NCBI GenBank assembly: GCA_031213475.1
Contig: JARUPZ010000004.1
Coordinates: 2,567,501-2,631,500 of the forward strand
Origin: Nereocystis luetkeana
Lineage: Eukaryota; Sar; Phaeophyceae; Laminariales; Laminariaceae
Reading direction: 5' to 3'
Length of the DNA stretch: 64,000 bases
Below, one piece after another: positions 2,859 to 61,200 of this stretch; positions within the stretch are counted from its first letter, which is position 1, and the number at the start of each line of letters is the position of its first letter. The notes under the pieces were generated by a model, which saw only the letters and a program-made list of their open reading frames with translations, did no database searches and was not told the DNA's origin. The position numbers and the translations under genes were made by a program.

Positions 2859-5339
2859 ACCACGTCACTCAGGACGAGGCGTTTCGACTCCTCTTCGACG
2901 TGTGCTGTGATAGAAATATTGTCTACCAGGTAGCATTGTTTTTCCTCAAGAGGCAATATTTATGACTGACTGGATTCCTCGGCCGAGAAACTACAGCACC
3001 TTGTAAAGCATGTGCCCGATAAGGCACGCGTCTTATAGACAATCACATTTTTGTTCACAATAATATGCTTCGAAGAAATACTTAAAGATAGGCCGAGGTT
3101 GGGTTGGGTCCATTTTTACCAAAGTTAATTGTTAGGGAGAGGGGTTAGCGTAAACTTCCTTAAGATAGTAACCTCTGGAGAAGTGCTATACTTTATTATA
3201 ATTATGCTTGCCTTCCGACAATATAGCGTAGATAGATGCCGTTCCGATATAAACCGAATATCCTTCCGTAAATCAGCAGTACCCCTCACACGCTTCTCCA
3301 CCAGCCGTTTCCCAATTTCCATTCCCCACATCACTTCATTTTAGCTACCGGTATAGTATATCCTATTCCTCATCAACGTTCCATCCCCAGGTCCGTCCAC
3401 GACTCGAAGTTGGAGAAGATCACCTGGCACCAATTTCGGTCGGCTGTAAAGGCTGGGGAGCATCGCGGTGATGTACGAGGCGCATCGGACAGGACTCTCT
3501 ACGCCTTCCTGGGAGCGGAAAATGGACCTCCAGCTCTCTCGCCGCGAGAGTTCTTCGATGCTCATGGGCTGGCACTCCGAACCAGCACCGCCAAACCAAC
3601 CACCTGCTGACCGCCGGATGAGAACTTGGCGCAGCACAGCCGGAACCTTCTCGGGAGCAACAGCGAACGTTTCCTGGCGCCCGGCTACGGCTGCGTCCCG
3701 CACGCCAATTGGCTTGGACACCGCACAGCGCCATGCGGCACCATCCAACGGCGCCTTTTTTTGTTACAAGGGCAACGATGGTTTGTGGTGGCTACCGCAT
3801 ATCGGGGAAATCAGCTTGAGTAAGCCTACGGATAGGGTATATTTAGTTCGGCCTTTGGATGACCCGGGACCGATCAAGCTTCCTCTTTCTCCGACGCGCT
3901 ACACGAAGCTGGCGCGTTCGCACCTCGGGAGGTCCAACGTAGCGCGGATGGACCTCGAGGCACAGTGTGGATCGCCGCGGCGCTCAATTGCTTGTCTGTC
4001 TGTTTCCCTGGGCTTTGGGGTTTAGGGGCTTGCTTTTCTAGGTCCTCCTTTGACGTTTTTCTCACGCTTGCTGGTCGGGTTTGTGGTGGATATTACTTGT
4101 TTTGTTCTGCCCCCCCCCCCCCCCCCCCCCCCCCGCCCCCGCTCAGCACCGGGGCTGGTCTGTGGGACAGGATAATAGATTTCCGTGTTGTTTTATTTTT
4201 CTTCCTGCTGACCCCCCCCCCCCCCCGGCTCGCGCGCGCGCGCTCGGAGCCGGGGACGATCTTGATAATTTGTGTATACTCTTCTACTACTGTGGCACAG
4301 GACTCTTTTTATTGGCTGATTGTGTTATCTTTTTCGGCGGTCCAATTTCACCTTGCGCCCCCTATAGCTATGTAGGGTCGTGGCGCTAGTTCGGGGTTTC
4401 GCGTCTCCGTGTACACGTTCTCGCCCCCCCCCCCAGCCATCCCCCGGCGCTGGTGATATAGCAGTGGCTTTCGTTGGCACTTATTATATTCCTTAAGGGA
4501 GGGGCTCCTCCCTTTTCCCTTGCCTTGGCGTTTTTTCTCGGGGTATTTGCCTTGCTGTTCAGAGTGCAGAGGTGCGGGGGTGGGTTTGGAGGAGCCACAT
4601 CTCGGACTCATGCCGCACTTGGTGGAACGGGGTTTCCACGACTTTCCGAAGTTTACGGCTCATTTATCAGAGCGGACGACGGGTAGTGTTGTGGTGCTGC
4701 CCTCTGGAGTACTTGAAAATGCCGATAATTGCCCAAGTAAGTGCAGGCATTGGAAACATATTCGTATTACTAGTAATCGTGAGGCGCCTCTAAGATGGGA
4801 AAACAGGGGACGGGCGGGACGAGATAGTCCCACCTATTGTTTTAGTCTCCTTCGTGACCGGAATTGAATCGAGCTGCTGCCTTTTTTTCAACCACAAGGC
4901 TACGGTAGAGGGGGATCATTCTTCGGTGTTTGCCTTTCAGCCGCCCAGAGCCGCTCGGCCGAGCGATTACCCGGTTTCTATACAGCAGATCATTCAACAC
5001 AAAAAACATGTTCTAGATCGTACCAGGTACAGATTATGCGGGTCCTAACCGGCAACACGAGTTAGATCTTACAATATCGGGAATATATATATATATATAT
5101 ATATCTGTCTTGAAATATATGTGTAGATCATGAACTGGGAAGCGATGATGTGATATACGTCCAAGGTGTGAATTTCTTCCCAGGACAACTTTCGAGTGAG
5201 GTTGATACAGAGCCACTCGCCCGAGTGGCCTAAACGCGGTAGTCAAAATGATGGCACCATACCCCCCCTCCCTGCCTCTCGGCGTACATAGTATGCACCC
5301 GGTACATAGATAGGTTGGGGTGGCGTCGGTTGGCGATGA

Positions 5340-5822
5340 CGCTGTAAAGCACGCCTCACTGCGTGAGCTACGTAGACAGCCAGGGTACCGTTTTTCTCCT
5401 TTTCTTTTTGGCGGTTACCACGGCTGGCGGTCGAAATAGATCACTTTTTTTCGGGGATAACCTTTACTCAGCACAGGGGGGGACGATCGTTCCACGTGGG
5501 GTGTATATGGTAAGACACCCTGGAGGCAGTTACATAGTAAACCCGTTGCTATCTCTGGAAGTGGCCACACCAGAGAATAAATCAATTAATTGACGCTGTG
5601 TCATCCATATGCAAGAAATTCCGCCTCAAAAGCGGTTCTTAGTTGGATGCAGCTCACCCTTCATGCGACTCGTCCAACACATCACAGCGCTTCGCGCTTG
5701 GTGCGAGCAATGTCTGCCTGGTCGGTGAAAACCCGACACGCTCCATCCTGGCATTGTGGGGATGCGAGGGTCTATGATTATACGACTAAGGTAAGCAACA
5801 AATGAGTACGCCCCCCCCCTCT
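5340..5822 (+). mobile_element. Poly-C-tailed retroposon-like repeat (long copy)
   Basis: Second long copy of the family at 2383-2858. It ends AACAAATGAGTACGCCCCCCCC. A truncated copy (5823-5955) follows it directly. Confidence 0.6.
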
Positions 5823-5955
5823 CCTGCAAGCAATGTCTGCCCGGTCTGTAAAAAGCCGACGTGGTCCGTCCCGGCATTGTAGGGATGCGAGGGCCTATAT
5901 GGCCATACTGATACAGGCATGCATGAAAATGATGGCCTCATACCCCCCCCCCCCT
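5823..5955 (+). mobile_element. Poly-C-tailed repeat (5'-truncated copy)
   Basis: Starts inside the family at GCAAGCAATGTCTGCCCGG and ends with a poly-C run, in tandem with the previous copy. Such 5' truncation is typical of retroposition. Confidence 0.5.
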
Positions 5956-6964
5956 TCCCCTGCCCCTACCGTAGCGCCAGCCGTCTATTACTGTTGTTAC
6001 CCCACGTTATCTCTAAGCAACCAAACACATATCAACAACAACGAGACTGAACCTGCCCACAACAGGCAAACCTGGTAAGGGATACTACAGCTGCTGCTGC
6101 TGCAGCTATATAGTCCGAGTCCCGCGCTGCATCACTTCACCTCATGCCTCATGCACTATGCTGTACCCACTTGTTTCTACAAGGTCACTCGGCCAAGTAG
6201 GCCGCTGTCAGTGGGCAGTGCCGTATTGTGTTATTCGTGAATTCACCTCGATCTCGATATACCAGGTATATACGAACAACTGCTGCTGTATCGCATACCA
6301 GGTATATTTGATCTCCTCCCGTCACCACGCATTGTTACGGCTACTACTGCTGTAGGGACACACTATCGCAATGGCTTTTACTACTCCAGCGCTTCGATGT
6401 TCCATTCGCCTTTCGAACATCTAACGCACATAAGATTTATTCACTGTTGTGTGGCCGTACCAATGCGTCGTAGACACATCAGCAGTGGAGGAAAACAAAA
6501 AATAATGGGTATCAATGCAACACAGATTGTTGCCGCAGAGCACACCAGGTAACAGAGGAGAGTACTCTGTGCATCAAGTTGAACTGCTTTAGGAGAGACG
6601 AAACATGAATCTGGCACTCAAATTTCTAGACCATAATCACCGAAACCCTTGTACCCCCCTCCCTCTTCTGGGCAGTCTGCGTGATATCTGGCAGCAAGAA
6701 CCTGCGCATGCATCTGGAATCTGCATGATTCCCATCCAACTTTCCAAGCCAACTAGCCAACTGCCCAACTGCCGAACTGCCGAATTCTCAGCGTTTCGGT
6801 ATCTTTCTATCCCCGAACGAAACAAGCCTTCCAATAAATTGAACACTTGACCACCTTCAAACTCAGCCGTCTAGCCAGCCCTCTGCCCTCTGCTGATTGA
6901 AGAACACCCACAGCAATCAGCACTGGAGGTTGGTGATTGTGGCACCCCTTCACCACATTGAAGA

Positions 6965-7104
6965 ATGTCCTATGCCGATGCCCTTTCAGAAGAGGAGACC
7001 CTGCAGACGTACTTCGACAGGAGCAAGTTCACCGCTGGAGGGGACACGAGCCAGCTGAGACCGGCATGCTCCGCCGTTCAGCAGTTCATTGCGCAGGAGC
7101 TATG
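6965..7104 (+). CDS. SMPD4: SMPD4-like exon 1 (start codon)
   Basis: ATG at 6965 opens MSYADALSEEETLQTYFDR and runs to a GTGCGT donor after two bases of a codon. The segment LRPACSAVQQFIAQEL matches the N-terminal helical part of SMPD4, just before the FP-x-EL region. An upstream in-frame start is possible, but the homology begins here. Confidence 0.75.
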
Positions 7105-10100
7105 GTGCGTGCGTGCGGCTGGTGCTTCGAGCCTGCTTGATTGCCATTGGACGCCGTTCACCTGTGCGTGGGTTGTACGCAAGGACGATTGATTCGTTGG
7201 TAATCCTAGCTTGGCGTTGCGCAGCTTACAGCAGTGGTGTACGCTTTGTTCTGCTCTGTTGGAGTTGCTCCTTGCTTTTGAATTGGCGCTGCTGCAAAGA
7301 AATGCCCAAACGTCCAACGCTCAATCAAGCGTGCAGTCAGCACACACAGACCTTTACTCTCTGCTCTATCGAGTCTTGAGCGTCAAGATGTACACTCCGT
7401 CTCAGTGTGGAAGGATGGTTTGGCCAAACGTTGCCCCGACCGTGTAGCTATAAGATACGTCCTTGGCTGCGCAGCTGGTGTGGTGCGAGATGAGAAGCAA
7501 GTGAGTGAAACATGAACTACCGACTTTCGTCGCGCGGTGATTTCTCATGGCAATGCAAGGGTAGTCGCTATATTCGGTATACTCGATATACCCAGTATAC
7601 TCGATATATCCAGTATACTCGGTATACCCAGTGGGTACTGGGTATACCCAGTCCCAGTATACTCGGTATACCCAGTATACTCGGTATACCCAGTATACTC
7701 GGTATACCCAGTATACTCGATATACCCAGTATACCGAGTATACCCAGTGTACCGAGTATACCCGGTATGCTCGGTATACCCAGTATACTGCAGCCTAACG
7801 AGGTTCCACAACAGCAGCACGCTCTTCTGCTGTATTAATCGTACGTACGACATCGTACCTATATACGTCTCTGGCTGTCATAACGTCACCATACCGTTGG
7901 CAATACCGTTGGTAATACCGTTGGAGTACGAGTATATATCTACCCCGAGTACCTTGCACGTATACGTAGTACCAGGTATCATCCAGCAGTAAACGTGTAC
8001 CAGGTACACGGGTATAATACTCTTTGAAAACTCTTTACTCGTACGAGCACGCGGTATACTCTACTGGTGCTGGTACTGGTACGTTTTAGAAGTGGCACGC
8101 CCATGCAGATCAGTGGTATTAATGCTATTTACCCTTTTTAGGACTGCAGTCCCGTTTTCGGAACAAACTACCTTAAAAAAATTGAGTGTTTTGTCCCCTC
8201 AACGGGACTGCAGTCCTAACTACTAATAGCAGTCTTGTGCAGAAGCGACGAAAGTGCACAGCCGACATCTCCAACAACAAGCAAGACTCCATCAACAAGG
8301 CTGGAATCATAGGCAGTTACAAGGTGGGCGTAACCCCTTTGAAGCTGCAAACACTGTTTTGGATACAAATTACTTGAAATTAGAGTTGCTTCATTGCTGC
8401 AGTAGTAATTGAGTTTCCTCAAAAAGTATCATGGCCCCAGCCTGGTATACCAATACCTGGCAATTCGTATAATGCCACTCGCGCTTGCGGCGTATTCACA
8501 CCCCAACGGTTGGACAAGAGCGCCCTCGCATTTGTTTTGGGCGCTGTGTACCTTGGTCACCCCCCCCCGCCTTCCCAGCCTTCAGTGGGAACCCCGCCAA
8601 CACCCCGACGTCACGCCTTTTGGTTTAACTGGTCCCCCCCCCCCTCCCCTCTCTCCAACCCCCGCCATCCCAACCTATTAATAGTGGAAATCTCGCCAAC
8701 GCCCCGACGTTCGACGAGCTGTGTATATGTATACAGTTCCCGTCGATCCGTCGTTACTCCCTTGCGTTTCATTTGACGTTGTGTACCCGCCCCCGCCCCC
8801 CGCCTCCCCCATCGCAGTGGAAACCTCGCCAACGCTCCGACGTTTGACGAGCTGTGGATACATTTTCCGTCGGTCCTGACTCGGATTTTCGGAAAACAGG
8901 ATGGGAGCACGTCGGCGCCCGGTGGAGGAGGCGGTGCTATTACGGGGGTATACAGCGGTAGCGCCACCGAGGAGAATAGCTGGATGTTTGCTACGTGAGT
9001 GTTTTTGGTAGTGGTTGCTGGGGGGGGGGGGGGGGGGAGGGTACTCGATAGGAGAGATGTACTCGATCTCATACATGGCCGTAGTCGTATGACCATAGAC
9101 CTTCGCATCCCTACCATGCCGGGGCGGAGCATGTCGGGTTTTCAACGACCAGGCAGACATTGCTGGGGGGGGGGGGGGGGGGGGCGTACTCATTTGTTGC
9201 TTGCCTTAGTCATTCGACCACTGACCACGCATCCCTCTCGAGAGACGGAGCACCGTTACTACTCCTAATAGAGACACCTCCAACAATTGGGCGCTCATTG
9301 CGTTGTTTCCATACCAGGTATATAATATGACTTAGACCTATGCCAATGGCAACGAGAAGTCCAAAAGTTTCTTTCAAATATATTGCTTTGAAAACACAGA
9401 CGAAAAAAATCCTCGTACCGCCGCTGTGGAAAAAAATAGTTTGTTTTTTCCGACGGCTGCAGGCGGCTCAATTTGTATTTTCTGGCTGCAAATCGTCAAC
9501 ACGCTGATATAAACCAGCTCGCGCGAGGATCGACGCTCGATCTCAACCCACAGCCAACCCGCTCGTTGTCCGGCAAGGCCAACGAATGTAGATGACGGCC
9601 TCGAAGATATCCGGTGGATCCACGGTCTAGGGGGCGAGAGCTTGCCGGCGGCGTCCTACGGTATCCTCCCAAATCTGAAAAAAAAAGAGTATTTTCTGGC
9701 ATTCGAGACGGATGGAGAATTTTTGTCTGCTGTTTTGTGCGCAGCGCGGCCAAAATGTATTTTATTCATACGCCTGGTCAGCTCCCGCCACATGACACCG
9801 GCCATGGTGTGAAGACGGTGACCCTAGGGTGGATCGGAGCCCCTAGCGAGCGCACTCCGTTCAGAAGTCATGACGCAGTCGTCGGTTTTGTCGATCGATC
9901 TCTGCCAAGGACTCGGAATCTCGCCGCTTTGGACCAAACATCCGCCTGAGTTTTTCTCAGGCCGATCTTAGCCCCAGCATCGGCCCCAGATTTCCTTTTT
10001 TTCGGGCTTTTCCAAAAAGTTTGGAACTTTCTGGATTAAGAAACGTACCCATAGCAAGCTGTACCTGAAAAAATCTGGCGGGTATCTTTTGAATTCGAAC

Positions 10101-13100
10101 TTCATACTGATACTTTGCTTTCCCATTGGCATAGGTCTTTGGAACTTTTTGCTACTCGTGCCCCCTTCCTGTTTCGCCGCCTTTGGCCACCGTCTATCTC
10201 CTAGGATAGCGATCGTTTTTCGCTGCTCTTAAAGTGTGCCAAACTCCTCCATGTCACATTCGTCCGTTTCCCTCATCTCTTGTTCTAACACGCGCCGTTC
10301 CTCCTTGTACATTTCACATTCTCCTACTAGGTGAGTCCTGCTCTCTATTGCTTTGCCACACGGGCACATCTGTGCATCTACACCCCCCTCCTCCCGGCTA
10401 CTGTTATACCTCTTCTTTCGGGCAGGTTCAGTTTACCTACACGAAATCGCAGTTTCAGCGTAATCGCGAAGTCTATTGGGCCTTGCAAATACGTTTTCAT
10501 TCCTATCCCTTCGCTTCGTATATACCAGGTATCTCTAAAGCATTTCTCCGATTTCACGTTGTCTCTCAGCGCTAGCCTTCCCTAATTTCCAGGGCTTTTC
10601 GCGGGTCAGGTCAAACCTCACGGGTCGGGTCGGGTCGGGTCGGGTCAGCTGACCCGACCCGACCCGAGAAAACATTGAGGTGTGTTGACCTGACCCGACC
10701 CGACCCGCGAGATTTTGAAATCCTCTTGACCCGAAACGACCCGACCCGCGAGATTTAAAAGCCTCTTGACCCGACCCGACCCGACCCGTGAGATTTCAAA
10801 CCCTTTGACCCGACCCGACCCGACCCGCGAGGTTTTCAACACTTCCTGAGCCGACCCGACCCGACCCGCCACCTTCCGATTGACCCGTGAGACACGGATT
10901 TCATGCGGGTCGGGTCAACCGGACCCATGACATATCTCACGGGTCAACGACGAAAGCTCACGGGTCCAAAGACATGAACGTTGGTACGTTGGTCGGTTGG
11001 ATGGTCCTTGGTCCTTTGACTTTTCCGAAAATGTCGTACGTTTGTGTTCGGTTTTTTCATTTTTTGTATTTTTTTTATGCATTGTGTGGTGCGCGCTTAA
11101 TAAAAGACCATGATGATCAGAAACATGATGACATGGAGAAAGGCACACACACCGGCACTCTGCCGGGCGGATACCTCCCGGCCCCTGGGTCGACCCTATA
11201 GCTCTGACCCGATGGCTTCTGCTGGTGCCCCGGCGAGCGACCTAGCTGTGCAGGCTCCAGCAGCAAGCACTGAAGCGGAGGTTCTGACAGCGGGGGCCAC
11301 GATCCGCGAGGATCCGGGACCTGCTGCTGCTACTGCTGCTGCTGCCGCGACGAGCGCGGGCTTCCTACACTGCTGTCATGTCTTGTCTTCATTGTTGCAC
11401 CCTGCATGAGAGTGTGTGGCCGTTTATTTTTGTGGAATGGATGGAGGTGAACATGAACACAATAATATACTACTGCTGTACGCGACTTCATCCGACCCGG
11501 GATTCGCGTGTGATTATTCTACACGCTCTATGCTCTCGGGGGTCTACGTATCGGTACAAGAGAAGCCTTTGGGCGGGAAACGGCGTCTTTTTTGTTGTAC
11601 AATGCCGGACCCGCGGGTCGCAAAGGCGGCCTTCCGGCAGGTAGCTGCACACGTTAGCAAAAATACTGATCCTTGGGCCAGACCCGCGGGTCGGACGTGC
11701 GGGTCAGCCGGAAAAAAATCGCGGGTCATGATGACCTGACCCGCGAATGACCCGTATCTCACGGGTCATGACCCGACCCGACCCGTGACATTTTGAACAC
11801 CCCCTGAACTGACCCGACCCGACCCGCGAGATTTCAAAACCTCTTGACCCGACCCGACCCGTGAGATTTCAAAACCCTTTGACCCGACCCGACCCGACCC
11901 GTGAGATTTTTTTTAATTTTGACCCGACCCGACCCGACCCGCGAGATTTTGGAAAAAACGACCCGACCCGACCCGACCCGCGACATTTTGAAACCCCCTG
12001 ATCCGACCCGCGGGTCGGGTCGTGACCCGCGAAAAGCCCTGCTAATTTCAATCCTTTCTTCTACTTCTGCCTTGTACCTACCAAACTCTTCTTCACTTCT
12101 TCCCTTGTGAACTCTCTCTGTAACGCTTCTGAACCCCTGGCTGTGTTCCCTTTCTGATACATCTACGTTCGCCCTCTGCCCACGCGTGGATTTCCTTCTC
12201 GAAGTCTGCGTCGAACGTTTCGTTGGCTATGGGCGTTTTTAGCTTACGGTAGTGCTCTAATAATACATATTGTAGTAGTGCTTCACGTTCAGCCTCCGAT
12301 CTACTAACCATTTTACCTTTCTGTGCTTTTAGGGTAGTTATTCCCGTGTCTGCCTCTTCTGCTTGTGTGCGCAGTACGCCCTTTATCCCTACCCACATCT
12401 GCTTCATCCCTGACTCAAAGTCTTCGCTCGTTTTAAATTCTACGTGTTTCCATATCCCTTCTCCCCTTCTCTGCCATCTTTATTGTTTCTTTCTATTAAT
12501 AGCTACCTGGTATAGCATATTCCTCCCATCCTGCTGTAGTTTTAGTCGATTTACATGTGGCTTGCGTCCTTCTCCTTACTCTAATGGCATCTTTTACTTT
12601 TTCATCCCACGATTTTACCGTTCTGTTGCATACTATTACGGGGGGCCATAGTTAACAGGACCAAATATTGTTAGTAAAAATGGTTAAACATATACCAGGT
12701 AGGTTTTATGTATACTATAGGTCCTGGTAACTATGGTCCCCCGTATTACCAACTTCTTCCCTTTCAATTAACTTTCTGCCGTCTTGACCAAGCGCTCCCA
12801 TCCTTCGGGGTGTACTACTACGGGGGGCCATAGTTAATAGGACCTGTGGTATACATAAAAACCTATATATTTAGCTATTTTTACTAACAATATTTGGTCT
12901 TATTAACTATGGTCCCCCGTAAATAATATCATGCATGGCCGTAGTCGTAAGACCTATGCCAATGGTACAGCGAAGTTGCAATAAAAAGTTTGAATTTCAA
13001 AGATACCCGCCAAACAAAAACAAAACACGCTTCCTATGGGTCACCTAAAAAAATAAAAAAAAGTTCCTAACTTTTGGAAAAGCCCAAAAAAAGCAAATCT

Positions 13101-16100
13101 GGGGCCGATGTTGGGCCAACATCGGCTTGAGAAAAACTCAGGCCGATCTTTGGTTCGAAGCGGCGAGATTTCGAGTCCTCGACAGACATCGATCAACAAA
13201 ACCAACGATTGCGTCATGAATTCTGAACGGAGTGCGCTCGTTAGGGGCTCCGACCCACCCTAGGGTCACCGTCTTCACACCATGGCCGGTGTCATGTGGC
13301 GGGAGCTGACCAGGCGTGTGATAAAAAACATTTGGCCGCTGGTTTGCACAAAACAGAAGACAAAACTTCTCCATCCGTCTCGAATGGCAAAAAATAGACT
13401 TTTTTTCAGGTTTGGGAGGATACCGTAGGACGCCGCCGGCACGCTCTCGCCATCTAGACCATGGATCCACCTGATATCTTCGAGGCCGTCATCTATATTC
13501 GTTGGTCTTGCCAGATACCGAGTGGGTTGGCCGGGGGCTGAGTCTATGTCGAGATCGAGCGTCGATCGTCGCACGAGCTGGTTTCGATCACCGTGTTGAC
13601 AATTTGCGACCAGAAAAACACAAATTGCGCCGCTTGCAGCCGTTGGGGGAAAAAAAAAAAAAAAAAAAAAAATCAAACATTTTTCTCTTTTTTTCCCACA
13701 GCGGCGGTACGAGAAATTTTTCGGCTGTTTTTTTAAAGCGATATATTCAAAAAAAAACTTTTGAACTTCGCGTTTCCATTGGCATAGGTCTAAGGGGTGC
13801 TAAAAAACGAACATCCTATTTTCGGAAGACTGTCTACCAAATATTTCCGATAACAGCCTGTCCGGTATTGTCAATCTTTAACCCTTCCGTTCCAGAAAAA
13901 GCGAGCGCCGAAAAACGATCGCACTCCTTACTGTGCGATCACGGGGGACCATAGTTAATAGGACCTAATATGCTTATTACGGGGGACCATAGGACCAAAT
14001 ATTGTTAGTAAAAATGGTTAAATACATAGGTTTTTATGTATACCATAAGTCCTATTAACTATGGTCCCCCGTCATAGTAAGAATACTGTGATATATAGGT
14101 TTTAGTGTACATGATGGGTCCTAATTAGTATGGTCACCCGTACTAGCCTACACGAAGTCACACGCGACTTGATGCAGCATCGCGTGACCACGTATAAACT
14201 CTGTTTACCAGCAGGTCGTCATCACGGGTACGTACGTACGAGTAGCACTTTGGAGGCGATCTACGATAGACGTGCACCTTTTTTTTCTGAGGCTCCTAAC
14301 TTGACCTTAATGAGCTCTATATCGCACCCGAAAACTGAATTCAGCAAAAGTCAAACTGCATCCCTATGAATATTCCCATGTCCCAAGTATGCGAAAACGT
14401 CATTGTTCGAAACAAGATTGGCATTCCGACGATTCTTGGTCAAGGAGCCCGTCATTCAGAGCTCGTTTTGGCGGAAATGTGCTACCTCTATCGGGGAACG
14501 CGTCTTTCGTACTTGGCGAGTATATGGGACCCGATAATTGTACGGTGTTTAGTACGGCATACTGAAAACCTGAGACTCACACCAGGTACTGCGTATGTAT
14601 ATATGTTCATGTATGGCGTTGTAGTATAGCCATGCAGCATCCCGTACCAGGTACGATTTATACTGGGCGTACCAAAACCCATGCTCTAACCCCTTCAACC
14701 CCACCCTAACCCTAGCTCTAACCTCAAAGTATAACAGTATAAAAGGCATACTAAAAAGAGCGCAAGTACTCGCGACTCCCGGCTTTTTTTCTCTCCGGGT
14801 TTGTCGTGTTCTATTCAGGGGGCCATAGTTGATAGGACCTACGTTAAACCCAAAAAACTACCAGGTATATATTTGCCTATTTTTACTCACAATGTTTGGT
14901 CCTATTTACTATGGCCCCCCGTAATAGTCACGGGTACAACTGTACTGCCTTAAGGAGTAAGGGCGTTGAGTTCGCGAGGGAATGCGATCGTTTTCCAGCA
15001 GTATTGGTAGTTTTCTCGGCAGAACAGCGAGGGTGCTATTGAAGTCGTACCGGGTACGTTTTCTTTCCAGAAGGCTCTCTCTCTCTGTCGTTCGACCAGA
15101 TTTTTCCGAAAACACCTTGATCGGTATCGGCACACTCCCCTTTTGGAGACATCAAGGCCTGAAAAAAACGATCGGACCGCCCCCTGTGCCAAGTCAGCGC
15201 TCGTTAGGGTATGCAGGGTTGGTGTTTGTCCTATCCTACTGTTGTGTTCCACCATGAACAAATGACAAATGAAGTTACAAAATTCCGAGCAGCCATGCTA
15301 CTTAGTACCAGGTACCAGGTACTAGACTAGTCTATACCAACCTGACGGTGAAGATAAGCTCTGTTCGATATTGATGTCAGAGCACAAACGTGTACTGTAT
15401 TCCCGGTCAGAGAGATGTTATTTTGGTTCGGTAGTCTATGTCACTGTGGCCGTGAATATGGGCTCTGTTTGATATTCACGTCAGAGCGCAAACGGTTACT
15501 AGATTCCCGATCAGAGAGGATAAGCAGTATACTGCTGCAATCCAGTATTCTGATTTGACTTTGACAACAGTATAATCGATACTGACTTTGTCTCAGCCAG
15601 TGCTCAGTCCTACTATTGTATACCAGGTATCGGGTAATGCCGACCAGGTATGTAGCCTATCAGAGGGCTCATCGGATTGCGCGCATACACCGTCTTTTTC
15701 CGGGTGAGGTACAGAGCTTCATGCTATGTTAGGGACCCAGAGAACAGGGGATTCCTACGTTACCCCCCCCCCCCCCCCCCCCGTCTTTTCCGAGACTATG
15801 GCTGGCAGGTTGCTGCTGTGTCTCGCTTTCCCGTTGTCTCCCCGCGTCGCTGACGTTACCTCTGCTGTTGGCTGGTGACATGGTGATACCTTTGCTCTCT
15901 CATCGGTCTCCAGGACCTCGTTTTACGCTTTGGGAGACAAGCTCAGCAACCACCCGACAGTGCCGAGTGGGGGAGGAAGAGGCAGCACTCCTAGTCGGTG
16001 AGGCCAGAGGAAGGCGGGGGGAGGAAGCGGGCGGTAGGGGGGGAGAGGGGGGGGAAAGGCGTGGGGGGTGGGTTGGGGGGGGGAGGTCCTTCACGCGTTG

Positions 16101-19572: not shown

Positions 19573-19604
<32 letters not shown>

Positions 19605-40721: not shown

Positions 40722-40779
<58 letters not shown>

Positions 40780-45968: not shown

Positions 45969-45984
45969 CCTTGCCGACCCTTGA

Positions 45985-46680: not shown

Positions 46681-46790
46681 GGGGGACCATAGTTTATAGG
46701 ATCTGTGGTATACAAAAAAAGCCTACCTGGTATATATTTAACCGTTTCTACTGACGACATTTGGTCCTATTCACTGTGGTCCCCCGTAAT
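46677..46790. mobile_element. MITE family M1 (reverse, TACCTGGTA insertion)
   Basis: TTACGGGGGACCATAGTTTA to GTGGTCCCCCGTAA, with TACCTGGTA at the mid TA. Confidence 0.9.
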
Positions 46791-47874
46791 AATAGTCTGA
46801 GCAAGCCTTCCATACCGTAGTCTGACGCCATCCTCGAAGAACGTTGAGCATAGCCTATTATATACCTGGTACCTGGTACTGGTAGCTTTTAGTGTAGCAC
46901 CCGCCGCTTAGCGCGACTTGTTAGTCCGATTTTCCACGATTTGTGCAGTTGTTCGGGCATCACTTTTTGCGCTTCACGAAACTATGTTTCCATCTCCGAC
47001 GAGTCTCCGGTGTAAAGCTTGAAGAACCGGTAGCCTTTCGTGTACCGCTCGACGCTGAGGACGACTTCTCAATCCAACTTTCCCAGCGGCCTTCCAAAGA
47101 GTGCGCCTTATGTTTTTTGTTACAGTCAGTAGGTTAGTTTCTGTTCTTCGGCCTATCCATGGTCTTTTTATGCTGTACGGCTGCTGTCGAAGCCTTGGGG
47201 TGGCCACTTTCTACCTTTCGAGATACACAATCGAATCACGACGCATCTTTTGCTGGCCTTGAAGAGGACCCGTCAAGTCATCGCGGAGGTGGCTTTGCTC
47301 TCTGCCCGTCCGTCCACGAGGGTTGTCAAGTCAAGTAGTGGCCCCGTTCTGGCTGTGAGGCCGCGTCTGTCACGGACGAAGCGGTTTCGGTAAATTGTCC
47401 AATTAAGTAAGATGTGTCATTTGTTAATGGAGTTTCTTTGTTTTCTTTATGCCTGAAGGTGTCGAGTGGCCGTGCTGACCTTAAGTACTTCGTATATGTC
47501 AAGACGTGGCTTTGCTGGCTTGAGTGTGCCTTGACGCATACTGGCACACTGCGGTGAGTGATGCCAGGAGTACACTAAAACGAAAATAGTAAACGACCTG
47601 AACTGCTTCCCGACGTCACAATCGAAAACAAGCCGGAATGGTGACATCTCTGGACGGACATTTGTTGTTCGAGATATGCTCAGTAATAGTAACACATACT
47701 TGGCTTTCGCCCGGTCTAGGTACAGTATTAGCACTTTTTCGTAAAAATATTTTCTGAATTACGGGGCTCCTCATCCTGAAATCGTCGGAATTGCCGTTCT
47801 TTATTGCAGTATGTTTTTTTTTTGTTTTCCATCGGGTTGCACTTTCAATTTTCATCGGGTTACACTTTCATTTT

Positions 47875-47976
47875 TCGGGGGACCATAGTAAATAGGACCC
47901 ATGGTACACACAAAAACCTCTGTATTTCCCTATTTTTACTGACAGTATTTGGTCCTATTTACTATGATCCCCCGGG
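47875..47976. mobile_element. MITE family M1 (reverse)
   Basis: TCGGGGGACCATAGTAAATA to CTATGATCCCCCGG. A TCTG tetranucleotide run follows. Confidence 0.88.
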
Positions 47977-48457: not shown

Positions 48458-49095
48458 AGGGTCGATCTTAACGATACGTTTGCATTTCTCGTTGAATTTC
48501 GGCATTTCCCCAAATTCAGCGAGGGTTGAATCTTATCGAGTAAGTGCCTCAGTTGGCTCGGGAAGTAATCGTCCACCCGGCACAGAACCGTCCCTACAGC
48601 AGGTGCGCTCGCGGAACCCATGCGTGCGGTGGCCCCACGGTCATCGGCCTGACTCGTAGGCAGGTGTCGGTGCCTTGGGGGAGTGAAATCCATCACCAAC
48701 TCGTCACGCAACAACGCCCAACGCTTGCCCAAAGCGACAATTTCTCAGCTATCGCCGTCACCGAGCTCAGTCGGTCGGCCACCTCGGTGCGGTCACTTTG
48801 TGAACTCGGCCACGAGAGCCCAGAAAGCTACCTGGTATTGCGCCTTCTTCGTTCGGCCACGACTTGCGAATGGCCTCAGGAACGACCCCTGTCAGCTCTG
48901 TGCGCTCGCAAGTGGTGGCACAGCTCGAGCGGTGGGGTTGCCCGATCCTGTACGGCCTTGTACCTAAATTTCCAGATCAACCCTAAAAACTTCGAGGCGA
49001 CTTTTTGGGGGGGTGAAGTTTTTCGGCTTTTTCCGAAAATATTTCGGGAAAATACCGAAAAAAACTGAAAAACACTCGTCGTTAAGATCGACCCT
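48458..49095. mobile_element. 638-bp TIR element
   Basis: AGGGTCGATCTTAACGA (48458-48474) and its exact complement TCGTTAAGATCGACCCT (49079-49095) form 17-bp terminal inverted repeats. Next to each are A/T-rich stretches related to ATTTCGGCATTTTCCC. The interior codes for nothing I recognise, although a 97-aa minus frame (48732-48439) is open. Target duplication is unclear (possibly TA or A). Confidence 0.7.
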
Positions 49096-49383
49096 AATAC
49101 CCCTGTGTATAGTTCCTTAAGGTCGAAGGACCCCGGCCAATCTTGTTGCCGCGTGCAAGGACACGTAGCGGAGCTCTTTTAGGCCGAAATAATTGTGACT
49201 GACTTGTCACTGTAGTATAAACTAGCTAATGAGGCATGTGCTTTACGACGCATGCTTTGTCCCACTTACTTGAGTTTCCTCCATGGTTTTTGTCAGTGCC
49301 TACACTCGGCCATGGGATGGCCCATCGGGTTCAGTCTACGTACGTAATTTTCAAACATAGGTTTTTGGTGACGTACCACTGCT

Positions 49384-49495
49384 ATTACGGGGGGCCATAG
49401 TTAACAGGACCAAATATTGTTGGTAAAAATGGTTAAACATACCTGGTATAGGTTTTTATGTATACCATAGGTCCTGTTAACTATGGTCCCCCGTA
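49384..49495. mobile_element. MITE family M1 (TACCTGGTA insertion)
   Basis: TTACGGGGGGCCATAGTTAA to CTATGGTCCCCCGTA, with TACCTGGTA inserted two bases left of the usual site. Confidence 0.9.
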
Positions 49496-52200: not shown

Positions 52201-55200
52201 CTGGAGGACGGAGAGAGGAGAAGAGGAGGAGGAATCGAAGGGGGGGGGGGGGGGGGAGAAAGCAATCGCGCGATGTGGTGGGAGGTTGAAAATAAAGTGT
52301 GATCTGAGGGCAGGGGGTGTATGTACTCAAAGTTCTTGCATGGTCGTAGTCGTATCAAGAATGTGACCATACACCCACGCGTGCCTACAAGCGGCCGGGG
52401 TGAGGGCGGGGGGGGAGAGATTGGTAGGGGGGGTGTACTCATTACCATGCATTTATTGATGCATTTATTTTTGTCCAGGGTAATACGATTTGTTTCGGGT
52501 ACTGTTATAGTGCAGTGCTACAGCAGCATGTGTGTATGACTTTCTCGCTTTTATTTCCCCCTGCTTCGAGGCAATATGGTGTGTCGTCTAAGTCGGGAAA
52601 AAAATCCATCAAACTACCGGTATCGGGTCGGCAGGGGCTCATCATGTATGATAGAAAATATGTGCCAAAATTTCAGGGTCTACATATCTCCCAAAAACAG
52701 CGTGGGCATTGAACTCTTAACGAATTTGGGGCGGGATGCTTGAACCAGCCTGTACCGGCATAACTCTGGCCGGAAGCATAAGGAACGATTGCTATTATTA
52801 TTGATGTACGAACGGTCCTTATATTTGCGGCCAAATTGCTACTATATACCAGCATAGTGTGGAAGCCAGGGTCGGAGATACCCATCGTAGATCTTGTAAC
52901 ACGCAAAAGTGGAAGGACACGCCACCGGTCAAGCAACATCAGATCTCGGGTCACGAGCGGTCTCACGTCTTAGACAGAGTTGACCCGTCCTCGGGAGATA
53001 GCTACCGGGAGATTATTCCGCCGCAGGACTCTGGGGGGACAAAACCTCCTCCCCATCGAGTCAGACTACTGTAGGTCTAGCATCTTGCTTTGTTGTTTCT
53101 ACGGTGTGTCCCACTCCATGTTGTACTGCTAAAACACTCGGGTCATGCCGCGCGTCCTATTTGATACGTATCTTGCTCGTACAGTATTCGACTGGTTGTC
53201 TGCATGTACGTGTCTTGCACAGGTGTTCGCCAGAGGGGTGGCGCTCGTTTTTCGGCCACTTTTATCCCTCCTCTTATCACAGGGTCTACCGACGCTGCCT
53301 ACGGTCACGCTAGCTGCTTGCGCTACCGTTTGGCCAAGGCGCACGAGGATAAGGGTTGGGTAGTGAGGGGGCCCGCGCAGATTTCCTCAAAGCGGTTCGG
53401 GGAGTAGGTTAGCTAGGGCCACCGAGCTCGCGGTGCGAACGATAGCGCAAGCAGCTAGCGTAACCGTATATATATATAATATATACCAGGTATACATAAT
53501 ATATATATACATATATATAATATATACCAGGTATATATATATATATTATATATATAGTATATATCAGCTATATATGTACCAACATCGATTTCACCCATCG
53601 AAGGAAGGAAGCCTAGGCACGAACCACTAAGGACAGATGACGGACTACGCGACGCGAAAGAGGAAGGAAAAAACACCATGGACGACTGAAGATGAAACAG
53701 GATACGAAGGACGACATACGAAACACCAAAGACGAGACACAAAATAACCCGAAATAACACGAGGCACGAAAGAACATGGAAGAGGGGGACGCAAGAAACA
53801 CGAAGCACAAAACACATCACAACCTGAAGAGGACGACGCAAGGAACACCGAACACGAAACACGAAAACGCCAACGACACAACCTGAAGAGGACGACGCAA
53901 GGAAAACCGAACACGAAACACGAAAACGCCAACGACACAAAACAAAAACCACGAAGAGCGCATGGCAGACGACGAAAAGCAAGAAATAACACTAAGACAC
54001 GGCTCGACGAAACACACGAAAACAAAACACGTACATCACGAAACACGAACGATGGGCGACTGACAAACCGCGAAACTCGAAAGAGGTGGGTGGGCTACCG
54101 CGACACGAGGGTCACAGCTCATTTTGGCCGAAACACACGTAGGATGTTCACGGGTTGGGCCAAATCTCTCGCGGGTCAGACCCGGTCGGGTCGGGCCGGG
54201 CAACGGTGACCGGACCAGATCCGTGAGAATTTGAAAACCTCCTGACCCACACCCCGACCCCGCCCGCGATATTTCGAGCACTTCTTGACCCGACCGGTGG
54301 GATGGGGTCAAGACCCGTGAAGACGCCAGATAATATTTTGCGACTGATGCGGGCTCTTGGCCGAGAAAACTACCGGTACCCAATAAGAAAAAAAACTATA
54401 TACCTGCTATATCTCTCTCTATATATATATAATATAATATATATATACCAGGTATCTATATCCATCTATCTATCTATATATAGGTCACTGTGAATACAGT
54501 TATTGGTACTCGTACGTTTTTTTTTACAATAGTATGCGTAAAATAACTCTACCTCGAAGCATAAGGTCAATGGGTTGTTCATGAGGATGTGCATCAAGCC
54601 GACAGTCCATTTTTGTTTCTTCTTGAAATCATTTTTTGGGTGGGGATACAGGGCTCCCCATCCCGAGTGAGCCTTCCTGAGCCTCGGATAAAAAATAGGC
54701 GCAACCCTACCTTACTGTAGTAGCAGGTAACCCTTTTAGGACTGCGGTCTCGTTTTGGGGACAACTTACTTCGAATTTGACTGGCTGTCCCAAAACGGGA
54801 CTGGAGTTCTAAAAGGGTTAACTCCTACGAAACAGGGATGGCAGTTACTTATGACCGGTAACCTTGCGTTATTACATGCCACCGGGTAACTTTGCGGTAA
54901 TAGTCAACTGGTGACTTGCGGTAGGCAGCATGGTTTTCTGTTTTTCGCATGTTACCGGTAGCTCCTCGAGTGAGCCTGCGCCTCAGGAAGAAAAACGTGC
55001 AACCGTATCTTAGTAGCACGCGTCAACCCCTACAAAGCGGGGATGGCAGTTCCCTATTACCGGTAACTTTGCGGTAACACATGTCAGCGGTAGGTAACAC
55101 ATGTCAGCGGTAGGCAACACAAGTCAGCGTTAGGTAACACATGTCAGCGGTAGGCAACACATGTCAGCCGGTAACTTGCGGTCGGAGGTAACACGGTTTT

Positions 55201-58200
55201 CTGTTTTTGGCATGTCACCGGTAGGTATCACAACCTGTTCAACCACAGGTAACTGCCGCTGACATGGGTTACCGCAAAGTTACCTGTAATAGGTACCTGG
55301 TACCAGGGAACTGCCGTCCCTGCTTCAAAACCCCCAGATAGACACCAAAACAACAATGGTAAACTCGGCGTTAGGTATCAGCCATTGCAGGTAGAGGGTC
55401 ATTCGTGCGCCCATGTCCTACGACTCCTCACCATTGGAAATCGGGACGCGCCACTTCGTATTATCCTCCCGATCACGTACTGCTGTAGTGGTCGTTCATG
55501 TCATCGACAATTTGTATCCCCGACTTTTCCCGTCTTTGGTCGTGAGAGGGTCATCATATAATCAGCACCGCACTTTACACAACCATACACCCAGGATCTA
55601 AGTATCATTTCCAAGTACTTTGTCTCCCAAACGGAGGCGCAGTCCTCGAGGAATAAAAAAATGATATTATTTAATAACGCACGCACACAGACGACGCAAA
55701 AACTGAAAAAACAAACGCAGAAGAAAAAAAAAACAACGACAGGTGTGGCCGCAACCTCCCCCCCCCGTTCGCACAAAATGGGCGACAAAAAATCCTTGTG
55801 GAGACATGGAACAAACGTAGCGCACCACCATTTTTGGGGCCATCGTGAATAGGACCAAATGTTGTTATTAAATAGTAAAAGGAGCGAAATACGTAAGTTT
55901 TTTTTCTGTGCCGTAGGTTCTATTTAATACGGTCCCCCGTAAATAGGCGTGCGTACCGATGGAGAGGCTGTCGACACCTTGTGGGAGTGTTGCCATTGTT
56001 CGATGTCTCCACAACGATATTTTTACGCCCAAATGGTGCATGGGGGGGGGGGGGGGAGGGGGGGGCGTACTCGATAGCAGATATGAACTCGATCTCATGC
56101 ATAGCCGTAGTCGTATGACCATAGACCCCTCGCATACCTACAATGCCGGGACGGAGAGCGTCGGGGTTTCACCGACCAGGCAGGCATTGCTTGCACCAAG
56201 CGCGCGTGCGCGCGCCGGGGGGGGGGGGGCTCCCTGCTGGACAACACCTGCTAACCCTTTTATGAGCCGTAGTCCCGTTATGGGGACAAACAGTGAACAA
56301 AAAATACAACAACTGATCAGTCCTCAAAACGGCGCGGCAGCCCTAGAGGGGTTGAAGGTAAAAAGAACTGACCGTCATGATGATCGCGAACACTACGGCG
56401 CCGAAGGACCGGATGGTGTGGAAAATCAAGAGCTGGCCGATCGTCGAGCACACCCCGAAGGCCACAAAGTGGAGGTGAATCTCGGGGTGGTCGGACACGA
56501 AGCCGAAGAACGGCATGAGCTCGTCTTGGTGCACCAGAGTCACGAACGAGAAGATGGTGCTGAACGCCGTCATCACGAACATCATCTGAATCGGGCTCAG
56601 GTCCTGTGACGAGGAGAGGGGGGGTGGGGGGGGGGGGGAGGAGTGGGGGGTGGAGGACGGAGGGGGGTGCACTCATTATCACGCATGGCCGTAGTCGTAT
56701 CACTCTAGACCCTCGCATCCCTAAAATGCCGGGACGGAGAGCGTCGGGGTTTCACCGACCAGGCAGGCATTGCTTGCACCAAGCGCGAAGCGCCGTGAGG
56801 TGTCCGGCGTCTCGCATGAAACATGACCTGCATCCTACTAAGAGCACCTTTGTGAGGCGGGCTTGCATATGGATGGCAGTAGCGACTACTCGGCCTCGCG
56901 TTTCCCTTTCCCCCCCTTTCCTCCTCCTCCTCCTCCCCCCGAACGGGATGCTTGTTGAACACCCGGCTCTTACCTCTGCGAAGTGCAGAAGTTGAACATC
57001 AGGTGGAGCGCTAGCACCACCAAACGGTTCAAAGCTAGCTCATCTAAAAAAAAACATGGGTTCGATCCTATCGGGGTGAAAGTAGGCGTTCGATCGTTCC
57101 TCCTTGCGGCTCCCTTCCTCCCTTTTCTCCCCCTCCTCCTCCTCCTCCTCCACCTTCTCCTCCCCTGCTCGGTGAACATCCGAGTCTTCCACTAAGGCGT
57201 TCTACGATACAGGTTCACCCTAACTATTCTGAGGTTCCTCACTAGAGGGGCTACACACCACTCCCGTAAACTGACTTCAGCCAAAATCAAATAGCATCCC
57301 GATGAATCATCCCCATGGCCCAAGTATACAAGAAAAAAAAAAACATTTTTCGAAACAAGATTGGCATTCCGACATACGGGTTAACCCCTTTAGAACCGCA
57401 GTCCCGTTTTGGGGACAAACTACTTGAAACTTGAGTGGTTTGTCCCCAAAACGGGACTGCGGTTTTAAAAAAAGGGTTAAGGAGCCCGGTCGTTTAGCAA
57501 ACAAAATCAGCGGAAATGTGCGACCTCTATCGTAGAACGCGTCCATTGAGAAATGAAGCAGCCGAACGCCAGGTACAGCCCGGTCGTTTAGCAAACAAAA
57601 TCAGCGGAAATGTGCTACCTCTATGGCAGAACGCGTCCATTGCGAAAAGAAGCAGCCGAACGCCAGGTACAGCCCGGTCGTTTAGCAAACAAAATCAGCG
57701 GAAATGTGCCACCTCTATGGTAGAACGCGTCCATTGAGAAATGAAGAAGCCGAACGCCAGGTACAGGTACAGCAGCTAGCAGCATCAAAAGGTCAAAAGC
57801 TACGTAAGAGTATCCCTCAATACATGGGTTACGTCAAGCATTCGATGTTTTCCCCCCTTGCGTTGCCCTTCCTGTGCCTCTCCCCCTCCTCCGCCCCTTT
57901 CCTTACCCTGTGCTTGGTGAACATCCGACTCTGCCACTGCGAAGTGAAGGAGTCGAACACCAGGTAGAGCGCCAGCAGCATCATGCCGCACGCCACACCA
58001 CCCTGGCCCTCGAGCTGGCCGAACATGTCCGTCCCGAAATTTACTCCCTCCGACGAGTTCTGATTTAAGCACACAAACACACACAGAAAGAAAACACGCA
58101 GACAGTATGACGACATACCTCGTGTCTACGGTAAGAGATAGGAAACACGCACGGCTTTGGCGCTGAAAACACGGATTGAAACATCCAACAACAAAAAATG

Positions 58201-61200
58201 ACACCGGGGGGTATCACACACAGGAAAAACACACGCGAGACACGACGAACCCACACGATGACAACGGCAAAAACACACACACACAAGTGAAAATTGAAAA
58301 ACACAGATTAAAATCACCAAATAAAAACGACGCCGGTAGTAAGACAGTATACAGCTTATTTCACCTGGTGCCACCCACGAATATCATAAACCCAGCAAGG
58401 CCGAACCGACGAGCATTCATGAAAACGCGCAGGAATCACACATGAGATAAAACAAAGGCACGCATTTTACATACACAAAGCAGAGTAATGCAAATAAAGC
58501 ACACGTTGAATAACCCACCAGGTCGAAATAAGCCTATCTGCCATGAAGGGCAAAAAGGGACGAAGAACAAGGCCAGCACGAACACCAACTACACGCATAC
58601 AACCTCTACACACACCAGGTACCTGGTACTGTTTGCATATCGTAGGTGACAGCATGTGAAGCAGTCCATGAAAGAACGCGGGAATTTTGGAATTTTGGGG
58701 TGGCCGAGCCAAACAAAACCACCTCAACACACAAAACCCAACCGAACCGAACCGAACCGAACCGAACCGAACCGAACCGAACCGAACCGAACCGAACCGA
58801 ACCGAACCGAACCAAACCGAACCAAACCGAACCCGACCACTCCAATCAAACCAAACCATGCCCCACAACACCGCACCAAACCAAACCAAAACCGAACCGA
58901 GCCAACCAACTCAGCCCAAACCAACCCAACCCAAAAACAACCGAAAACCACACCAACCCAAAACCAAACCAAAACCAACCCAACCCAACCGAACCAAACC
59001 GAACCAAATCACACCAAAACAAACCGAACCAAAACCGAATCAAACCAAAACCAAAACCACAAACAACCAAAAACAAACCACACCAACAACAAACGAAATC
59101 AATTCAAAGCATGCAGAGCAAGGTAGAGCGAAGCAAAGGAAAGTGAACCACATCAATAGCAAGCGAAATCAAAGCAAAGCGGTGCAAGGCAGAGCGGAGC
59201 AGAAAGCACCCACCAAGAAGAGCGTGATGCCCAGCGCGATAACGCCGGCAACGACGTAGTCGTAGAAGGGGTACTCCTTGTTACCCAGTATTTTCCCCAT
59301 GACCATGATGGGCACGATCTTGAAGCTCTTCGACAGAACCTAAAACAAATCAAAGAGACGGAGCAAAAAATAAAAAAATAAAAATAAAAATAAAACAAAA
59401 AAGGGGACGAAAGAAGGACAAACAACAATTATAAAAAAAAACACGGAATGGGACAAAAACACTAAGAGACGGCTAAAAGAGCGAGAGCTAAAAAACAAAA
59501 AACAAGCGCAAAACGTGCAGAGCTATCTGAGAGCTACCGACACCAAAAACACTTTCAAGAAGCTCGTGCTATGTACCTTTGAGATTGGCGCATACCCTTC
59601 CCGGGTACCCGAGTAGCCTACCCGTGTACCACTATGGACGGGAATGTAAGGAACGCTCGAGTACAAACATGAATACATAAACGGTCCTTACATTTCCGTC
59701 CAGACTGGCATTACTCACTAACGGGTATGCTTTACCTGCTGTATGTTACCGCTCCCCAATACCCTACGTACCCCTTTTGCACTGCTACGTAATACCTGCC
59801 ACCCGGTACCACGTACTGGTATGATATTTTGAAGTATCTACTCAGGTAGTCGGGAAGCCTTTTTGGCTTTTTCGGGGACGGGATCCCGCCATCCCCCGTT
59901 TCAATTACATAGGAATCCAGTGTGGGAAAAGGTACATGTAGGATTTAGAATGCCATTTTGGGGAGGGGACGGTTGCCTAGTACCCCCCCCCCTATATCCG
60001 AAATGACCAAAGATGGAAAGTATAGCGCCAACCACCCTCATTCAACCGAACGTCTGCCCTTGCTTACCCGTGCTTCTACCCGGGTAGAACGGGTAGAGCT
60101 TACCGACGGGTATATAATATATATTAAATATATGATCTACCGTATGTTACAGCCCCCCAATACTATATCCGGCTCCATGCTAAGTAGTATGAGATTTTGG
60201 ACAACACGCCAACGTAGTCGGGTATAGCCCTTGTATTCACCTCAGCGCCATACCCGAGAAACTACCTGCGGGTTTCTACCCGGCTTTACCCGTGCTTCTA
60301 CCCGTGTTTACCCGTGCTTCTACCCGGGTAGAGCTTACCGACGGGTATATATATATATATATATTATCTACCGTATGTTACAGCCCCCCAATTCCATCCC
60401 CGGCTCCATGCTAAGTAATATGAGATTTTGGATAGTACACCAAGGTAGTCGCGTACGGCCTTTGTACTCACCCCAACGCCATACCCGAGAAACTACCTGC
60501 GGGTTTCTACCCGGCGTTACCCGTGCTTCTACCCGTGTATACCCGTGAATCTACCCGGGTAGAGTAGTGTAGACCTTACCAACGGGTATGTATTACCCAC
60601 ATTATGTTACAGTCCCGCATGCCATACCCGTCCCCGAATCACGAAAAACACTCCTCTGCATGCTATACCCGGGTCGGGTAGCTCTAGCATCGACCCGAAC
60701 ACCATACCCGCGAAACTGTCGATGCACCCACCCTATCCACTGAAGACGCACATGGAGTAAATGCATACTTGTACATGTACCAAGTACATAGCCTCCCACA
60801 GCAGTTGCGGCAGACTTGCAGTAAGTTGAATTGCGATACGTGCGCGTAACTGCACCCATACACATGTACACGTTGCACACTGCTGTAAGGCACAAAAGTC
60901 CTAAAAAAAAAATGTGCAGCATATGAGAATGGCGAGACGGCGACCCACCTGCGTCGGGAAGGTGACGTACTTAAGAGCCTCGTACTGGCACCAAGAGCTG
61001 AGCATGTTGGACACCGCGGGGAAGGAGTACTCGTACGCCAACGCCTTAGACCTTTTCGGGGGGGGGGGGAGGAATACGAGAATGTAAAAAATAGATATTA
61101 ATAGTATGACTTCAGCATTTTTTTTAACGAAAAAGAAAATTCACTGCAATGAACTTAATTTATATTTGTACCGAAATCATGGAACTTCAGCGAACGATAC

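Follow-up and report, generated by a model that had tools for sequence, protein, structure and literature searches.

What placed the same nine bases 40 times into a stretch of brown algal DNA in which chance would supply about one copy? The stretch (hereafter, the window) comprises 64,000 nucleotides of the Nereocystis luetkeana assembly GCA_031213475.1 (contig JARUPZ010000004.1, positions 2,567,501 to 2,631,500 of the forward strand), and the word is TACCWGGTA (W being A or T), which the original prediction took for the footprint of an excised transposon. The answer that we consider very likely is that TACCWGGTA is the excision scar of a TA-inserting, cut-and-paste DNA transposon resembling the Tc1/mariner elements.

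The window holds 40 copies of TACCWGGTA (21 CCAGG and 19 CCTGG) and 49 of the shorter ACCWGGTA, close to the roughly 45 that had been counted by eye. In Markov simulations of the window (orders 1–4, 20 per order), the 9-mer occurred with means of 0.75–1.65 and a maximum of 4, and the 8-mer with means of 2.05–5.45 and a maximum of 10, where two to four copies had originally been expected by chance; the observed frequencies do not match a Markov background. TACCWGGTA is by far the commonest TA-N5-TA word of the window, the runner-up (19 copies) belonging to M1, a miniature inverted-repeat transposable element (MITE). Elsewhere in the assembly, 20 pieces of 10 kb each (200 kb) contained 79 TACCWGGTA, compared with no ATGGWCCAT, no ATCCWGGAT, and nine TAGGWCCTA, the last of which is part of M1. 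The genome-wide comparison with control words that had been proposed returned 182,395 occurrences of TACCAGGTA in the whole 465-Mb assembly (91,240 forward and 91,155 reverse), a number of sites and not of events, as it includes redundant contigs and copies multiplied inside local repeats (e.g., C1:1303367-1308115), against 1,744 (861 and 883) for the reversed control word. The motif observation is confirmed, and the excess is genome-wide. Since CCAGG and CCTGG are reverse complements, an A or T center is the orientation of one motif, and the ambiguous central base, read originally as a sign of mismatch repair, reports only the strand. Any unoriented process would give equal strands, and this equality therefore neither proves nor excludes the repair of a central mismatch. 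We also note a 70-kb gap (G000:C1:124861-195538) with no forward-strand copy, where about 14 would be expected from the mean density.

M1 (about 107 bp, TA-TTACGGGGGACCATAG...CTATGGTCCCCCGTAA-TA) allows the motif to be compared with its own absence. The seven M1 copies singled out in the original prediction all carry it (Table 1), with A at the center in three and T in four; the total, given there as about 27 copies, comes to 29 intervals, and the motif-free copies mostly have a plain TA at this place. Across the window, loci L017–L036, and three contigs from bacterial metagenome-assembled genomes (MAGs), 12 of 62 M1 intervals contain the motif, one of them twice. When the copies are aligned, the motif is an exact 7-bp insertion at what is a single TA in the sister copies, as had been claimed, and it is absent from the M1 consensus, where its presence would have counted against excision. 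The TA that is used varies, being the first or second of the central TATA, the TA in AATAGGAC (filled at L020:3428 and L038:3009), or the TA in GGTCCTATTAAC (filled at L028:4829 and L008:2762), and two sister copies that are 97% identical (win_12635 and win_49384) carry the motif at adjacent TAs in opposite orientation. On a tree of 53 copies from which the seven bases had been removed, the 11 footprint copies require 11 changes, compared with a mean of 10.2 after shuffling, and the footprint copies are thus unclustered; the tree is weakly supported (35 of 50 inner branches open), with the well-supported branches alone forcing at least three changes.

Some observations concern M1 itself. At L020:2895-3090, a TA-flanked insertion of about 190 bp, with ends CATTTTTCTCG and TGCCCTTCTCG, lies in an M1 center and is perhaps a second TA-targeting MITE at the same hot spot. 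The M1 copies in L006, L007, and L008, the contigs binned as bacterial MAGs, likely reflect contamination or chimeric assembly: several repeats of L008 are also found in the alga, M1 stands at the very beginning of L006, and L007 has it in the first 2 kb (GC about 0.5), with GC-rich sequence beyond. One M1 region, searched against phages, had no match.

The same gain is seen when motif sites with 50-base flanks (130 in total) are compared with the sampled sequence. A paralogue spanning the junction was found for 21 sites, and at 17 of these, at least one paralogue is shorter by exactly 7 bp, the empty paralogues having one TA and no CCWGG and the scars a TA on both sides. The TA target and its duplication, a Tc1/mariner trait, are therefore present at 17 of the 21 sites, although the gaps are placed otherwise in most paralogue alignments at three of the 17 (M1 sites 12693, 40116, and 46724), and one (53525) lies in an AT run. 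Those of the 17 that lie outside M1 include L020:2403, with a single paralogue at 75% identity, and a repeat family in L026, L022, L021, and L036, in which the same TA holds CCTGG at L026:3152 and CCAGG at L026:6110. Of the remaining four sites, L008:2824 belongs to an M1 subtype, and three are AT-rich.

The flanks of the footprints carry a target signature, which we derived from 108 footprints outside tandems, TATATATA runs, and masked M1 (the masking being incomplete, as the M1 site L038:3009 stayed in the set), with all TA sites as the background. Position -7 is W (p = 4e-18), -6 is A (p = 3e-18), and -1 is a purine and rarely T (p = 7e-10), with weaker preferences at -4 (2e-4) and -11 (5e-4, left only); the signature is mirrored on the right, and each side is significant by itself. 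The resulting target, W-A-n4-R-TA-Y-n4-T-W, is a symmetric palindrome of 16 bp, and such an AT-rich palindromic preference is a further Tc1/mariner trait. A symmetric target around TA is a trace of the transposase dimer, as known for Tc1/mariner. Genome-wide, A-n4-R-TACCAGGTA-Y-n4-T accounts for 31,987 of the 182,395 sites (17.5%, including tandems, M1, and satellites), compared with 37 of 1,744 (2.1%) for the reversed control. Because an adjoining footprint would itself supply T-A-n4-G, and because 27 of 238 half-flanks (11%) are within one base of a footprint, compared with 1.5% for any TA, flanks within one, two, or three changes of a footprint were removed; the three positions -7, -6, and -1 then keep p near 1e-7 or below, and we reject the signature as an artifact of tandem neighbors. 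M1 insertions, unlike the footprints, prefer T-A-C before TA, so that flanks analyzed in this way tell enzymes apart.

Variation at the junction itself is limited. In the 264-kb sample, 119 cores have five bases, eight have six (CCAGGG), and 18 have four (CCAG, with about eight expected by chance). Both variants stand out among short G/C-rich cores by their flank-signature score (z 4.6 for the eight CCAGGG copies and 4.5 for the 18 CCAG copies), words internal to M1 and longer words containing the footprint itself having been set aside. By the same score, CCGG and CCCGG show no target signature, and TA-CAG-TA (96 copies) lacks it as well and is rejected as a scar of the Sleeping Beauty type. 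The alternative six-base order CCTGGG/CCCAGG occurs at one site, and the CCAGGG variant suggests that the sixth base of one element end is G. The tandems that had been read as re-use of the site were found at 15306, 16696, and 46863, and fit that reading; among the 7-bp tandem steps, which include a triple at L036:1511 and the cluster at 46863 that ends in a CTGG unit, four join copies of the same orientation and three of opposite orientation. The tandem motif also matched five viral contigs.

Mutated relatives provide a rough indication of age. Words differing from the motif by a single substitution occur 139 times in 26 words (reverse complement excluded), or 126 times if the complementary TACCCGGTA and TACCGGGTA are counted once, whereas 29 permuted control words average 42 and reach 92 at most. 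Transitions (78 in nine words) are foremost over transversions (61 in 17 words), and the mean flank score is positive in seven of the nine transition words. This excess indicates that many scars are old and, assuming neutral decay, we infer a rough divergence of 5–10%.

Taken together, the excision reading is well supported by the seven-base gain, the scatter over M1 copies, the palindromic target, the junction variants, and the re-use of sites; the central base shows only the strand, and the expected parent was not found in the sampled sequence. The sequence of events would start from the observed change of TA to TA-CCWGG-TA, within the AT-rich palindromic target described above. An element would have inserted at this TA, duplicated it, and later left, with a staggered cut by the transposase leaving the five terminal element bases (CCAGG and/or CCTGG) as overhangs. 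These overhangs would anneal through G/C pairs, two to either side of the central base, and then be ligated, giving a uniform scar. Pairing would be perfect if the ends were CCAGG and CCTGG, and would contain one central mismatch if both ends were alike; perfectly complementary overhangs are predicted to explain the uniformity better than a mismatch, with equal strands under both. The CCAGGG and CCAG joints that are occasionally observed would be variant products of this process, and the re-use of scar TAs would have produced the 7-bp tandems. The mutated relatives point to a long accumulation, in which the scars would have reached about 180,000 sites and intact elements would have remained scarce or become extinct.

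Among known systems, Sleeping Beauty has a near-palindromic core, C(A/T)G. The present scar shares with Sleeping Beauty and mariner the TA target, the TA kept on both sides, and a short core, but differs from them in that CCWGG has five bases and not three, in its roughly 182,000 sites in one assembly, and in being known here from scars alone. The overhangs of Sleeping Beauty have three nucleotides, and its footprint is identical to the overhang (extract of PMC7827188). Passer, a pogo-like member of the Tc1/mariner superfamily, inserts at TA in a palindromic consensus and leaves footprints of 0–4 bp (extract of PMC9976928); its consensus as given in that extract, AAGTACTT, agrees with ours in the purine before TA and stops short of -6 and -7, the strongest positions here. 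Rice Stowaway/Mariner elements have a 2-bp target-site duplication and are cut within the terminal repeat, with element bases left behind (extract of PMC4561436). Their excisions are seldom clean (8 of 94 perfect), most of them involving deletions or filler, and Mariner insertions outnumber excisions by 2.6–2.8:1 (extract of PMC4423477); here, by contrast, one product dominates.

Several points weigh against excision of an ordinary element of this kind. The scar is more uniform than those of usual transposon excisions, and its five-base core is longer than the three bases of Sleeping Beauty or the 0–4 of Passer, and thus departs in length from the scars of these two Tc1/mariner members. An excess of insertions over excisions like that of rice Mariner should have left many intact elements; no convincing TA-CCWGG...CCWGG-TA element was found in the 264–301 kb sampled. 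A DDE_3 profile search gave no hits among 30 scored candidates, a Transposase_1 search gave none either (its controls being silent too), and the four DDE_1 loci inspected in detail (L037–L040) lack TA-flanked inverted repeats. Finally, a high signature score is also reached by GGACC, a word internal to M1 (28 copies, z 8.0); we take it as one repeated family and not a scar. Membership in Tc1/mariner is unproven.

The element with CCAGG/CCTGG ends that the original prediction called for was thus not found in the 301 kb examined (0.065% of the genome, 131 scars). Taking 3 as the 95% bound on a count of zero, the 131 footprints put the ratio of scars to elements above about 40:1. A scan for 16-bp terminal inverted repeats adjoining TA (up to two mismatches) in the window, L017–L036, and L006–L008, complete for candidates beginning with CC, yielded, among the matches listed, M1, large inverted repeats in L022/L026, satellites, and one CCTGG pair in L025. 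This best pair (L025:3710-5803, ends CCTGGCAAATAATATCAG and CCTGGTATATAATATCAG, 18-bp inverted, two mismatches) encloses 2.1 kb that contain an M1 copy and an open frame rich in proline; being single-copy in the sample and empty in six-frame Pfam searches, it is probably a chance pair and is rejected as the parent. Across the genome, its end is present seven times, six at ordinary footprints, and L025 is the only place where it is paired. Pairs that continue alike are not significantly more frequent among inverted pairs (eight of 332, one satellite supplying three of the eight) than among same-orientation pairs (five of 450; p = 0.17). Among the 118 half sites in the 301 kb, ungapped tails recur between loci only for a satellite, and a further tail common to L022 and L026 (with an indel) is discarded because it lies within a longer shared repeat. 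Paired half sites less than 600 bp apart comprise four direct and two inverted pairs, L036:7395-7782 and L039:563-599; the latter, 37 bp of TACCAGGTGCC...GGATGCCTGGTA whose CCAGG ends are inverted and whose left flank resembles the target, may derive from the parent by deletion or may be due to chance. Neither M1, the ends (TA-TTACGGGGG) and flanks of which differ from the scar, nor the insertion at L020:2895-3090, which has other ends, is a suitable source, and Pfam scans of window stretches returned nothing. The parent might be scarce or extinct, or belong to a family other than those searched.

The DDE_1 profile search itself gave 28 hits. The pogo/CENP-B-like genes L037–L040, in which terminal repeats are not detectable, are possibly domesticated transposases, and L038, which reads LLLLGSHSSH where L037 has LLLMDGCSSH, may have lost a catalytic aspartate. 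We further note that L041 and L042 are one redundant sequence; that L043 contains internal inverted duplications (1704-3591 and 5205-7092, 99.5% identical) and, like L022 and L026, has large inverted and nested repeats in multi-kb foldback structures; that G000:C2:7917000-7925000 and C809:20800-28197 are 100% identical over 7.4 kb; and that three further small contigs (C872, C1099, and C1378) have the same DDE_1 score. The assembly probably has redundant contigs.

The surplus of scars over elements would also fit other explanations. In a hit-and-run system, the five-base complementary overhangs made by a TA-specific transposase would give a near-invariant scar, and the element would be lost after nearly every insertion (through programmed or immediate excision, or because its source is extrachromosomal), with scars exceeding elements far beyond 40:1; we regard this scheme as possible but rather unlikely. 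More improbable again is a direct 7-bp insertion with no resident element, by a TA-specific transposase or integrase that acts abortively, each insertion being undone at once, or from an extrachromosomal or viral source, with full insertions never persisting. The 131 scars against no convincing element in the sample, the great uniformity of the scar, and the failure to find a Tc1-type transposase in the DDE_3 and Transposase_1 searches would fit such an insertion; the junction variants and mutated old scars, however, fit ordinary excision over time, for which the parent could simply be rare, extinct, or of a family that was not searched.

Explanations that dispense with transposition fare much worse. 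One exact 9-mer at very high copy number might be expected of a functional motif under selection (a regulator, splicing signal, origin, or methylation site), but an exact 7-bp gain within MITEs and other repeats, equal strands, flanks that form a TA target with no constant context, and single-substitution relatives in an excess led by transitions, as in neutral decay, make this highly improbable. We give equally little credence to telomerase-like or filler-DNA insertion at random breaks, which would account for a short and uniform insert but not for TA specificity, the symmetric 16-bp target, or the mixed orientation of tandems. Least credible of all is replication slippage, or the spread of a 7-bp tandem repeat: the 7-bp spacing of the tandems is what it would produce, yet the copies are mostly single, some tandems have opposite orientations, and the empty paralogues contradict it.

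With excision as the preferred reading, the kind of scar is already known, whereas its length, uniformity, and number are new as far as the literature was searched. To our knowledge, a five-base core would exceed in length any other uniform scar of a TA-inserting element. CCWGG is also the Dcm/EcoRII recognition site, the cutting of which leaves five-base overhangs; this match is probably a coincidence. Among the papers listed in the literature search, none reported a comparable scar, and for the literal 9-mer, none of the matches listed was on transposons by its title. In the brown alga Ectocarpus, 17 Tc1/mariner families with 11,912 copies have been counted (extract of PMC12477816), and the main text of this census contains neither "footprint" nor "excision".

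Much of the window is occupied by a host gene. Positions 28900-29649 match three proteins at 51–56% identity, two of them from Scytosiphon promiscuus and Pylaiella littoralis, which by itself makes a brown alga the most likely host, and tblastn with the same three proteins outlines a single gene of about 37 kb on the + strand (6965-44042, about 15 exon-sized hits). Pfam PF14724, which we take to be the SMPD4 family, is present in two of the three matched brown algal proteins. The original prediction had placed no motif in a predicted exon, and indeed, none of the 40 lies in a tblastn hit of this one mapped gene, which is weak evidence given that the hits cover only a few percent of the window. 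Neighboring motifs in the window have the same orientation in 30 cases and differ in nine (tandems included), compared with 38 and 28 in the rest of the sample, in runs that are mostly CCAGG at 2924-22737 and CCTGG at 37067-49440. As the orientation switches inside one gene, the direction of transcription is not the cause. Table 1 collects the footprints of the window.

Table 1. Footprints and variant junctions in the window (positions are those of the window)
Feature	Position	Strand	Basis
TACCAGGTA footprint	2924..2932	+	exact match
TACCAGGTA footprint	5021..5029	+	exact match
TACCAGGTA footprint	6260..6268	+	exact match
TACCAGGTA footprint	6296..6304	+	exact match
TACCAGGTA footprint	7970..7978	+	exact match
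TACCAGGTA footprint	7998..8006	+	exact match
TACCAGGTA footprint	9312..9320	+	exact match
TACCAGGTA footprint	10523..10531	+	exact match
TACCTGGTA footprint	12504..12512	-	exact match
Footprint, second central TA of M1 copy 12635-12746	12693..12701	+	+7 bp vs sister copies
TACCAGGTA footprint	14645..14653	+	exact match
Footprint, central TA of M1 copy 14816-14925	14859..14867	+	+7 bp
Tandem TACCAGGTACCAGGTA, two footprints with common TA	15306..15321	+	
TACCAGGTA footprint	15621..15629	+	exact match
Tandem TACCTGGTACCTGGTA	16696..16711	-	
TACCAGGTA footprint	17985..17993	+	exact match
TACCAGGTA footprint	18694..18702	+	exact match
Footprint, central TA of M1 copy 22683-22792	22737..22745	+	+7 bp
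TACCAGGGTA, six-base variant overlapping next footprint	32830..32839	+	CCAGGG-class flank signature
TACCTGGTA footprint	32838..32846	-	exact match
TACCTGGTA footprint	34053..34061	-	exact match
TACCAGGTA footprint, 12 bp beyond end of exon-like tblastn hit	35255..35263	+	exact match
Footprint, central TA of M1 copy 37009-37097	37067..37075	-	+7 bp
TACCTGGTA footprint	37124..37132	-	exact match
TACCTGGTA footprint	38108..38116	-	exact match
TACCTGGTA footprint	39664..39672	-	exact match
Footprint, central TA of M1 copy 40057-40171	40116..40124	-	+7 bp
TACCTGGTA footprint	41420..41428	-	exact match
TACCTGGTA footprint	43496..43504	-	exact match
Footprint, central TA of M1 copy 46676-46790	46724..46732	-	+7 bp
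TACCTGGTACCTGGTACTGGTA, two footprints and four-base CTGG unit (46877-46884)	46863..46884	-	
TACCTGGTA footprint	48829..48837	-	exact match
Footprint, first central TA of M1 copy 49384-49497	49440..49448	-	+7 bp, tree
TACCAGGTA footprint in AT repeat	53484..53492	+	exact match
TACCAGGTA footprint in AT repeat	53525..53533	+	exact match
TACCAGGTA footprint in AT repeat	54446..54454	+	exact match
TACCTGGTA footprint	55294..55302	-	exact match
TACCTGGTA footprint	58620..58628	-	exact match

Excision scars are usually recovered singly, whereas here some 180,000 can be counted by string search in one assembly; their target preference can be read off, and their mutated relatives serve as a rough clock. 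Transposition history (rate, target choice, repair outcome, and re-use) would in this way be measurable without the transposon. Models that assume more insertions than excisions are left to explain why scars are in such surplus over elements. A footprint in an exon would be a seven-base frameshift, which gives such scars a bearing on the evolution of brown algal genes.

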